DNA of 64,000 bases from Lentisphaerae bacterium GWF2_49_21. Its GTDB lineage: Bacteria > Verrucomicrobiota > Lentisphaeria > Victivallales > GWF2-50-93. Positions within the stretch are counted from its first letter, which is position 1; each line of letters begins with the position of its first letter. The stretch is taken from NCBI GenBank assembly GCA_001804805.1, contig MHBH01000020.1:62001-126000 (forward strand). Direction: 5' to 3'. The position numbers were made by a program, and so were the translations under genes. Shown here one piece after another: positions 51,487 to 61,558 of this stretch. The notes beneath the pieces were generated by a model. That model searched no databases. It saw only the letters and a program-made list of their open reading frames with translations, and was not told the origin of the DNA.

Positions 51487-51538
51487 ATAATTTTCACTGG
51501 CTGGCCCCGGCATCGGGGCAGATCCCAGTGAAAATTAT
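51487..51538. repeat. Nested hairpin overlapping the glnK stop codon
   Basis: ATAATTTTCACTGG (51487-51500) pairs perfectly with CCAGTGAAAATTAT (51525-51538), enclosing a smaller CCCG/CGGG stem. The stop codon of glnK lies in one arm. It may protect or end the amt-glnK mRNA. Confidence 0.8.
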
Positions 51539-51876
51539 CCTATGGCGACGCCTCCGGTCTCGCCCGTCCTGATCCTCGTGCATTCCTCGAGGTCCAACAC
51601 GAAGATTTTTCCATCGCCGACCTCGCCTGTGCGTCCGCCTGCGATTATCGCGTCGACTACAGGCTTGACGAATGCTTCATTGACGGCGATCTCGAGCTTG
51701 ATCTTCTTGAGGAGGCTGCCGGCCTCCTTGTGGCTCCTGTAGACGGTCGCGACTCCCTTCTGTCGGCCTCTCCCCATCACGGAAGTGACTGTCACAAGAT
51801 GAATCTCCTTCTCCTCGAGCTTCTGCAGGACGTCGTCCATCCTGTCCGGCTGTATCACTGCAATTATATATTTCAT
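51535..51876 (-). CDS. glnK: PII nitrogen-regulatory protein (GlnK/GlnB-like) lacking Tyr51
   Basis: The 113-residue protein is a full PII trimer subunit: MKYIIAVIQPDRMDDVLQKL, GRGRQKGVATVYRSHKEAG in the T-loop, and the C-terminal signature TGEVGDGKIFVLDLEE with IRTGE. Position 46 is Tyr, as in many PII proteins, but position 51, the uridylylated Tyr of proteobacterial PII, is Glu. Regulation by uridylylation is therefore unlikely, while ATP/ADP and 2-oxoglutarate binding should remain. It is 12 bases downstream of the amt gene and would gate that ammonium channel. Confidence 0.93.
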   Translation of the reverse strand: MKYIIAVIQPDRMDDVLQKLEEKEIHLVTVTSVMGRGRQKGVATVYRSHKEAGSLLKKIKLEIAVNEAFVKPVVDAIIAGGRTGEVGDGKIFVLDLEECTRIRTGETGGVAIG

Positions 51877-51888
51877 ATTCCACCTCCT

Positions 51889-53424
51889 CTATTCTAATGT
51901 TGTGTAGGCTGCTTCACGATGTTCGGTGAGATCGAGTCCGACGCGTTCCTCATGTTCGCCGGTCCTGAGTCCGAAAAGCTTGTCGACGATCCAGAACAGG
52001 GCATAGCTGACCACGAAGGCATACACCATGGTGATGGCGACGGCCTTGAGCTGTATCATCAGCTGTCCGGGATTTCCGTAGAAGAGCCCGTTTGCCCCTG
52101 CTGAATTTATTGCGGTTGTCGCAAAGAGTCCCGTGGCTATCGCGCCCCAGATTCCGCCGATTCCGTGGACTCCGAATGCGTCGAGTGAATCGTCATACCC
52201 GAACTTCGCCTTGCAGAAGCTGACGGAAATATAGCATATCACGCCAGAACCGAGGCCGATGACTATCGCTCCCATCGGAGTGACGAATCCGGATGCCGGC
52301 GTGATCGCCACAAGTCCGGCTACTGCTCCTGTGATTACGCCCAGGACAGTTGAACGCTTGTTGAATACGAGATCCATTATTGCCCATGCGAGTCCTGCAG
52401 CCGCTGTCGCAACATGCGTCACGACGAATGCGCTTGCGGCAAGTCCGTTCGCGGCAAGTGCGCTTCCGGCATTGAAACCGAACCATCCGAACCAGAGGAG
52501 TCCGGCGCCGAGGACTGCAAATGGAAGGTTGTGGGGAGGGGACATCTTGTCCGGATACCCCATTCTTTTTCCGAGGAAGAGCGCGGCCGCGAGCGCCGCC
52601 ATTCCAGCGTTGATGTGTACGACGGTTCCGCCTGCGAAGTCAAGGGCTCCCATTCCTCCGAAGGTTCCGAGAAGTCCCTTGTCGGCCCACACCCAGTGGC
52701 AGACCGGATCATATACTATGGTTGTCCACAGCAAGGTGAATATGCAGAACGGTACGAATCTTATGCGTTCCGCAAACGCGCCGATGATGAGTGCGGGCGT
52801 GATCACCGCAAACATGGCCTGGAAGATCATGAAGGCCTGATGCGGAACGGTCGTGCCATATACCGCATGAGGTTCAAGGCCGACACCCTTCAGTCCAATC
52901 CAGGACAGATCGCCGATGAAACCTTTTATATCGGGTCCGAATGACAAGCTGTAGCCAATAATCACCCACTGCAGGGTCACCAGGCAGAGGATGATCATGC
53001 ACTGCATCAGCACGGAAAGTACGTTCTTCCTTCTGACGAGTCCTCCGTAGAAGAAGGCGAGTCCGGGCGTCATCAGCATGACGAGTGCTGCGCTTGCGAG
53101 GAGCCAGGCGGTGTCGCCGGCGTTGATTGCGGGGGCCGCAGCGATAACCGGAGCAACTGCTGCAGCGGCCGGTGCGGCAGCAACACTTGCAGCCGGCGCA
53201 GCCGGAGCAGCTGTGGCTTCAGTTGTCGCTGTAGCTGGGGCCGAGGGGACGGCCAGTGCTGTTGTCACTGCCGGGGTAGCCACAGTGACGGCTGGTGCAG
53301 CAGGTTTATTTGTAGCGGCGGCGCCCAGTGGGAATGCCGGCGGAGCCTCCTCTGCCCATGCAATGCCGGTCATGAGCAACGCGGCAAGCAGAGGCATTCC
53401 GATGATCAGTTTCCTCTTTTTCAT
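51889..53424 (-). CDS. amt: Ammonium transporter (Amt/MEP/Rh) with long Ala/Pro-rich N-terminus
   Basis: From ATG 53424 the protein has 511 residues: a signal peptide (cleavage near AWAEE), about 75 residues made almost only of Ala, Pro, Thr and Val, then the eleven-helix Amt core starting NAGDTAWLLASAALVMLMTP. The pore His pair is present in GGTVVHINAGMAALAAALFL and in FGVHGIGGIWGAIATG. It conducts ammonium across the inner membrane under PII control. The Ala/Pro-rich segment, probably a periplasmic linker, is unusual in length. Start 53424 is favoured by AGGAAG upstream and by the sigma-54 site at 53485-53500, which rules out a start at 53496. Confidence 0.93.
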   Translation of the reverse strand: MKKRKLIIGMPLLAALLMTGIAWAEEAPPAFPLGAAATNKPAAPAVTVATPAVTTALAVPSAPATATTEATAAPAAPAASVAAAPAAAAVAPVIAAAPAINAGDTAWLLASAALVMLMTPGLAFFYGGLVRRKNVLSVLMQCMIILCLVTLQWVIIGYSLSFGPDIKGFIGDLSWIGLKGVGLEPHAVYGTTVPHQAFMIFQAMFAVITPALIIGAFAERIRFVPFCIFTLLWTTIVYDPVCHWVWADKGLLGTFGGMGALDFAGGTVVHINAGMAALAAALFLGKRMGYPDKMSPPHNLPFAVLGAGLLWFGWFGFNAGSALAANGLAASAFVVTHVATAAAGLAWAIMDLVFNKRSTVLGVITGAVAGLVAITPASGFVTPMGAIVIGLGSGVICYISVSFCKAKFGYDDSLDAFGVHGIGGIWGAIATGLFATTAINSAGANGLFYGNPGQLMIQLKAVAITMVYAFVVSYALFWIVDKLFGLRTGEHEERVGLDLTEHREAAYTTLE

Positions 53425-53484: not shown

Positions 53485-53500
53485 AGCAGTCATCATGCCA
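53485..53500 (-). promoter_or_regulatory. Sigma-54 (-24/-12) promoter candidate for amt-glnK
   Basis: On the minus strand it reads TGGCAT-GATGA-CTGCT, with GG and GC at the exact spacing of the consensus and two mismatches. It lies about 60 bases upstream of the amt ATG. Sigma-54 control of amt-glnK is classic in nitrogen regulation. Confidence 0.6.
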
Positions 53501-53854
53501 AGTGGTTTCTGGCAGCGGTTAAAAGCATGGAGGACAAGTAATTATAAATATCGAGTAAAATGCGTGATGGTAAGGATAAGTTATATGCATGATACAAATA
53601 TGAGAACTGCCTGCCTGTAGTCAACGCATTATTGCGTGTCGGAATTATCTGGAAATCACAGCCAAAAACGGCTTGATTACCAGCGGGAGATCCTAAAGGA
53701 AATACTGACAGGATGTCTTGTTTTAAGTAATTACAAATATGTGTACAGGCAGGGTCAATAATAACAAAAATGTAATAATAAGAATAGATGCGTACTTTAT
53801 TGTAATAATTATATCTTGTTTGTCATCAAAGATTTGCAGATATCGATTCCGGGA

Positions 53855-53870
53855 TGGCACGGCCATTGCT
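53855..53870 (+). promoter_or_regulatory. Perfect sigma-54 (-24/-12) promoter for the secretin pair
   Basis: TGGCACGGCCATTGCT matches the consensus TGGCAC-N5-TTGC(A/T) at every fixed base. Transcription would start about 12 bases later (near 53882), in front of AAAGGAGG and ATG 53906. Confidence 0.82.
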
Positions 53871-60719: not shown

Positions 60720-60778
60720 CCCTGTTGTCATAAAGTCGGGATGGTTTTCGTAATAGGCGGATCCTTTTGGGAGGCATT

Positions 60779-61558
60779 ATGGTTACAGGAAAATCTCAGC
60801 GGATTTCCCGCTTGCATGCATTTACTTTAATCGAACTCCTGGTAGTGATTGCCATAATAGCCATACTTGCCGCACTGCTTCTTCCTGCTCTCAAGGCTGC
60901 ACGTGAATCCGCAAAGGGCATAGACTGCCTTTCCAACCAGAAGCAGGTGATGTTGGCATACTTGCATTATTCGGACGATTTCAATGACAATGTTCCAGGA
61001 TACCAGTTCAGGCACGTTCCGTGGGGTGGAGAATGGGCATGGTGCATTTATTTCATTGGCTGGACTAACTGTCATCCGTTTACTGGAAGTTCTGGTCCGG
61101 ACTACCTCACAAACAGGACAGTTGTCCGCTGCCCATACTATCCTCCTTACAAGGCGATACTTGAAAGCGACAGCGGTGCCGCCTGGGGTTCCTATGGGGT
61201 TCTCGGTACGCTTACAACTGTGAATGGCGTAGATGTGAGCGAGGCCGGAAAAGCCTTTTTCGAACAGCCTGGCTGGGTATGGGGAGGCCATGCCTGGAAC
61301 CTGAGGAAACTCTCCAAGCCTGATAAAATCCCCTGGATTGCAGACTCTGGAAGCGACAGCAGCAAACAGCAGACGGATCTCTTCACTGTATCAGCTGCAT
61401 GGCCAGCCGGAGGGTATGCCGTAATGATGAGGCATAACGAAAGGGCGAATGTGTGCTTTGTTGATGGGCATGCCGATTCATTCAATGGAAACAGGCTCAA
61501 GGAAGAAACAGGAGTAGCCCGCTACTTTACCAGCCAGTGGGGACAGAGGAATCCTTAG
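60779..61558 (+). CDS. Pseudopilin-like protein with H-x9-DG motif
   Basis: From ATG 60779 (GGGAGG 5 bases upstream) the protein has 259 residues. [20 protein letters not shown] is the prepilin segment, with Ala in place of Gly before Phe. [20 protein letters not shown] is the usual following helix. [17 protein letters not shown] near the end is a perfect H-x9-DG motif. It is flanked by a dehydrogenase gene and a heparinase-like gene, another case of one pseudopilin per carbohydrate locus. Confidence 0.9.

Follow-up and report, generated by a model that had tools for sequence, protein, structure and literature searches.

Two tandem secretin genes, SEC1 and SEC2, were found divergent from amt-glnK in a 64,000-nucleotide stretch of the genome of Lentisphaerae bacterium GWF2_49_21 (the window), and judging from promoter sequence they very probably are members of a nitrogen regulon. 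The earlier note had claimed nitrogen control of this pair, and the secretin promoter indeed bears a composite of an upstream dyad and a sigma-54 site that is typical of nitrogen-assimilation genes of relatives. We give about an even chance to the wider reading that, in this order, duplicated secretin pairs act as outer-membrane channels for the uptake of particular nutrients. Each pair would belong to the regulon of its own nutrient (nitrogen with sigma-54, phosphate with PhoB, and others) and be matched to an inner-membrane importer, and re-wiring would have occurred several times, which would make the pairs a secretin-based counterpart of substrate-specific porins. The features of the locus are listed in Table 1.

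Table 1. Features of the secretin locus in the window, followed by the amt arrangements and the small genes found beside secretin pairs.
Feature	Position or genome	Strand	Evidence or description
glnK, P-II signalling protein	51535..51876	-	PF00543 86 bits, E 1.9e-24
amt, ammonium transporter	51889..53424	-	PF00909 432 bits, E 2e-129
sigma-54 promoter, amt-glnK	53485..53500 (read 53500-53485)	-	TGGCATGATGACTGCT, 2 mismatches
Candidate enhancer (UAS) dyad	53761..53776	.	ATAACAAAAATGTAAT, ATAACA-AAAA-TGTAAT, 11/12 positions of ATTACA-N4-TGTAAT
sigma-54 (-24/-12) promoter, secretin pair	53855..53870	+	TGGCACGGCCATTGCT, exact match, 0 mismatches
SEC1, first secretin, 492 aa	53906..55384	+	PF00263 38.1 bits (cut-off 27.5), E 1.5e-9; profile matches to solved secretins
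SEC2, second secretin, 659 aa	55409..57388	+	PF00263 70.5 bits, E 1.7e-19; profile matches to PilQ and GspD
amt arrangement 1	own genome, G003		divergent
amt arrangement 2	G004		amt-glnK-SEC1-SEC2, perfect sigma-54 site
amt arrangement 3	G007		SEC2 then PII-amt
amt arrangement 4	G131		PII-amt, small lipoprotein-like gene, SEC1-SEC2; perfect sigma-54 site upstream
Small genes, about 150 aa	L126 6512-6979; L155 6814-7263; L144 3810-4238; L151 10855-11298; L262 3770-4309; others		no clear Pfam family, mostly with lipobox

Both SEC proteins exceed the curated cut-off of PF00263, and profile searches with them matched solved chains of phage pIV, PilQ and GspD. The secretin domain lies near the C-terminus of each protein, and by inspection there is a signal-like segment at the N-terminus. 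AlphaFold models of the two secretins, built from five-row alignments each, were poor, with mean pLDDT values of 42.5 and 35.3. The open frame of amt begins at 53496, within the promoter, and the preferred start is 53424, behind AGAGAGGAAG. About 3 kb downstream of the pair, at 60767-61558, the window encodes a pseudopilin-like protein, which carries a methylation motif at its N-terminus and weakly matches SBP_bac_10 (DUF1559). Elsewhere in the same genome (G000:C78:35949-40672), long open frames (about 890 aa) contain four weak tandem secretin-domain matches.

The earlier note had described a perfect sigma-54 site before the secretin genes and a two-mismatch site before amt-glnK, facing away from each other, and this was confirmed by our scan and by alignment with genome G003, in which the one close ortholog was found (secretin 83% identical, divergent amt retained). 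The two divergent sites have 354 bases between them. In the intergenic alignment, both -24/-12 sites and the dyad are preserved while most other bases have changed; the G003 counterparts of the secretin and amt sites are TGGCATGGGCATTGCT and a perfect TGGCACGCGCCTTGCT at the equivalent position, respectively. By count alone the sigma-54 sites are near chance, with 29 matches of up to two mismatches in the window versus 32.1 expected and four exact matches in the 5.9-Mb genome versus one for the reversed pattern, but they are beyond chance by position, spacing and conservation. Sites were graded on our own score scale with a working threshold of at least 25, which five sites in the window reached; only the site at 53855 has a strong dyad (11/12) 70-130 bases upstream. 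The palindrome at 53624-53637 (ACGCA-TTAT-TGCGT, with 5-base arms, the whole not self-complementary) had been proposed as a shared enhancer. It is absent from G003 and was rejected in this role, for which the dyad at 53761-53776 fits better. A direct repeat, AAGTAATTAYAAATAT, was also seen at 53536-53551 and 53725-53740, and its second copy is well preserved in G003.

The dyad sits 94 bases upstream of the secretin -24 element, and ATTACA-N4-TGTAAT is common to many amt promoters of relatives at about the same distance. A search of 41 genomes (the window's own and 40 relatives) for the composite of this dyad, 65-95 bases and a sigma-54 site gave 45 matches in 24 genomes, while the reversed control gave none. 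Sorted by the next gene, the matches preceded glutamine synthetase III (GSIII; 14), amt/PII (11, one of them, L083, assigned via the amt gene known at that locus), glutamate-synthase (gltB)-type GATase_2 (4), SEC1 (4), other glutamine amidotransferases (GATase; 3), glutamate dehydrogenase (3), NMT1-type binding proteins (2), and nifH, a sigma-54 activator, CP_ATPgrasp and a position with no gene called (one each); the consensus had been drawn up by eye, ahead of the search, on promoters of amt and SEC1, so these promoters helped to define it, whereas those of GSIII, the gltB-type gene, glutamate dehydrogenase and nifH did not. Among the targets, a single representative per class was checked against Pfam, the amt and SEC1 classes excepted. 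The four SEC1 genes behind the composite are those of the window's own genome, G003, G023 and G036, and the three matches in the own genome precede SEC1, a second amt and GSIII. Since the composite is found before nitrogen genes as well as before SEC1, SEC1-SEC2 very probably belong to the same regulon.

Whether the genome holds rpoN and NtrC-like activators had been asked earlier; rpoN was found, together with four strong sigma-54 activators, two of which, scanned against Pfam, were a GAF-AAA-Fis protein and a receiver-AAA-Fis protein. The amt promoter of the window has no strong dyad of its own (the best is 8/12 within 70-130 bases). The strong dyad nearest to it is that of the secretin promoter, 276 bases off, so the single dyad at 53761-53776 may serve both promoters. 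In G019 (L201 1942-2760, G019:C62), nifH lies behind the same dyad and sigma-54 site, and nitrogen fixation thus seems to be part of the regulon in this relative. The activator gene behind the composite in G021 (L173 1-1455, G021:C51) encodes a GAF-type protein that may be self-regulated; a similar protein is encoded on C86 in the window's genome. ATTACA-N4-TGTAAT presumably differs from the sites of NtrC and NifA, and we do not recognise it as a known enhancer motif. We know of no nitrogen regulon described for this order.

SEC1 relatives are present in 36 of the 41 genomes. Altogether 75 SEC1 genes were collected, of which 73 were scored and two had no scorable upstream DNA. A sigma-54 score of at least 25 was found upstream of 9/73 (maximum 29, next best 24.0), compared with 170 of 12,094 background windows of 350 bases, true promoters included (binomial tail 7e-7, n=71). 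Among 26 further genomes of the order, 5/55 SEC1 genes reached the same threshold (next 23; 59 rows minus four of G002, which was not a new genome), and since these five belong to genera already represented, they add no new lineages. Conservation in relatives, asked about in the earlier note, thus holds for both sites in the one close ortholog, and the sigma-54 site is not general for SEC1. The assigned pattern applies to a minority, since a sigma-54 score of at least 25 and a 12-of-12 PHO-like box are both missing at 57 of the 73 scored genes. At a locus of the same genus (L123 7371-9180, G001:C97), the dyad, sigma-54 site, ribosome site and SEC1-like first codons precede another secretin gene that is distantly related; the sequence looks as though a gene swap had taken place behind the promoter.

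Other pairs are associated with phosphate genes. The proteobacterial PHO box (TGTCAT repeats) gave no signal upstream of SEC1. A CTAACA repeat was read off the pst-linked loci and then scored, so part of its fit there follows from how it was chosen. The perfect repeat YTAACA-N5-YTAACA (12/12) was found upstream of seven SEC1 genes and in about 0.13% of background windows; five of the seven adjoin pst or pho genes, and the sigma-54 scores of all seven lie below 25. Over whole genomes, the stricter CTAACA repeat was only twofold enriched (39 matches versus 20 in the control), with 22 of the 39, counted by eye, within 5.5 kb of a PhoU-domain or SEC1 gene. The window pair itself has a PHO-like repeat at 9/12 positions, a level attained by about 12% of background windows, as against up to 12/12 in paralogs. 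A metallophosphoesterase without signal peptide, which we take to be possibly a lipid-remodelling enzyme, adjoins phosphate-type pairs at L093 8186-8929, L094 7884-8615 and L097 7349-8080.

Importer genes repeatedly adjoin the pairs. In 11 genomes (nine loci of the first set, G002 and G202), pstS and other pst genes come after SEC2; counted by eye, 10 of these genomes belong to the 29 (out of 41) that have a pst-type PhoU. Linkage of amt-glnK to the pairs was found in five genomes and in four arrangements (Table 1). NMT1-type ABC genes follow SEC2 in G023, G028 and G040, and similar ABC genes lie downstream in G128, G140 and G184 (six genomes), while in G012 the pair is followed by an SBP_bac_8 protein and a permease. 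The earlier suggestion of a nutrient-linked export or uptake channel fits well, because relatives of the pair adjoin pst, amt and ABC importers. The small genes adjoining several pairs form two clusters of six and five loci, with a lipobox in eight of the 11 called frames, and the small lipoprotein could be a pilotin. The genes divergent from a sigma-54 secretin pair in G005 (L100 4643-10779, G005:C1) resemble, by eye, an Rnf electron-transport cluster.

In a phylum sample, SEC1 was found at E 1e-20 or better in 48 of 194 genomes, all of the order to which the window's genome belongs; among plasmid records, SEC1 had no match. In the tree, built from 73 SEC1 proteins (two of the 75 stretches, shorter than 300 aa, were left out), the nitrogen label must have changed at least five times and the phosphate label at least seven times, whether by gain or by loss. 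The nitrogen pair of the window falls together with phosphate-type pairs of the same genus (support 83; 100 for each subgroup). Family identity, the regulon signature, the linkage and repeated re-wiring are supported by the sequence data.

We consider it reasonably probable that the secretin pairs are nutrient-regulon outer-membrane channels serving nitrogen and phosphate regulons, by the following mechanism in full. Upon nitrogen shortage, an activator, presumably NtrC- or NifA-like, would bind the dyad at 53761-53776 and loop to sigma-54 RNA polymerase at 53855-53870, switching on SEC1-SEC2, and the same dyad could drive the divergent amt-glnK promoter. SEC1 and SEC2, alone or together, would build an outer-membrane channel, through which ammonium or other nitrogen compounds would pass to the periplasm, from there to be taken in by Amt and further importers of the inner membrane. 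Paralogous pairs would play this part for phosphate, where they adjoin pst and some have PHO-like boxes, and for the substrates of NMT1-type ABC importers.

Known secretins have roles in secretion, pili and phage exit, and carry periplasmic gates. For the pairs described here, we infer that the direction of transport is uptake, which appears somewhat likelier than export. Three points favour it: importers recur as partners, Porin_O_P (PF07396, the porin family searched) was found in 0/41 genomes, and no T2SSE was seen by eye within 35 kb of a SEC pair among the matches listed. It counts against this direction that ordinary porins already let ammonium and phosphate through, so the need for a large gated channel is not obvious. 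The main rival is export, which we regard as rather unlikely: a common type II secretion or pilus-like machine, with its genes at another place in the genome, would use each pair as an alternative gate in the outer membrane, and the pair would be produced in scarcity to release scavenging enzymes such as proteases and phosphatases. Secretins of the PF00263 family are indeed known exit pores, and T2SSE-type ATPases occur in all 41 genomes, but, as stated above, none of those listed was seen near a pair. The linked genes encode importers and not secreted hydrolases, the metallophosphoesterase beside three phosphate-type pairs starts without a signal peptide, and enzyme export would hardly account for an ammonium transporter as partner. 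In favour of export, a secreted lipoprotein of Caulobacter is reported to be tied to phosphate starvation (PMC2996285).

It appears improbable that the pair, with a pilus-like apparatus, draws in large nitrogen- or phosphate-rich molecules such as DNA or peptides instead of small ions. PilQ serves DNA uptake in competent bacteria, secretin channels are wide, and the pseudopilin-like protein lies close downstream; however, the constant neighbours of the pairs are small-molecule importers, and no competence or pilus genes were found beside the pairs, judged by the gene labels used. That the -24/-12 match and the amt-secretin neighbourhood are coincidental and without function is highly improbable. 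Two-mismatch sites in the window are no commoner than chance predicts, and genome-wide the exact sites show no clear enrichment; however, the sites are conserved in G003, the dyad distance is fixed, the composite was found 45 times, at nitrogen genes, versus none for the reversed control, and amt is linked in four arrangements.

Secretins are textbook exit gates. With duplicated pairs that repeatedly carry nitrogen or phosphate signals and adjoin the corresponding importer, the secretin as an entry channel becomes a directly testable question, and in this little-studied bacterial group the pairs may be dedicated entry gates for scarce nutrients. The analysis also yields a candidate nitrogen regulon for the order and a means of using promoter and neighbouring genes to predict the substrate of a given pair.

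Compared with known systems, the pairs share with the GspD, PilQ and pIV secretins (PF00263) the C-terminal secretin domain and the signal-like N-terminal segment, but differ in being a tandem pair with nutrient-regulon promoters and importers as neighbours, with no nearby secretion ATPase among the matches listed. Hxc of Pseudomonas is a phosphate-induced type II secretion system. As in Hxc and the Caulobacter case, a secretion-type system would answer nutrient shortage; those systems secrete proteins, whereas here duplicated secretin pairs lie beside importers. OprP and OprO (Porin_O_P) are phosphate-specific porins and would be the functional counterpart, as nutrient-specific outer-membrane channels in the regulon of their nutrient, but they belong to an unrelated family; the window pair matches Secretin. 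NtrC- and NifA-type regulons likewise have -24/-12 sites, an upstream dyad at a fixed distance and glutamine synthetase, amt-glnK, glutamate synthase and nifH as targets; the difference is that outer-membrane secretins are included here.

In the same superphylum, the Akkermansia PilQ Amuc_1098 is an abundant outer-membrane secretin of 907 residues assigned to type IV pili, and the available part of PMC4960237 shows no tie of this protein to nitrogen or phosphate importers. Sigma-54 has been linked in general with envelope functions and ammonium transport as a controller of the bacterial exterior (PMC3162934), but the word "secretin" is absent from the main text of that paper. Secretins, sigma-54 nitrogen regulons and phosphate-specific porins are each already known. 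Among titles and the beginnings of abstracts, which give partial coverage, on secretins in Lentisphaerae, Victivallis and Akkermansia and on secretins in phosphate or ammonium transport, the Pho regulon or nutrient uptake, no report was found of duplicated secretin pairs linked with nutrient regulons and importers, and it is this linkage that appears to be new here.
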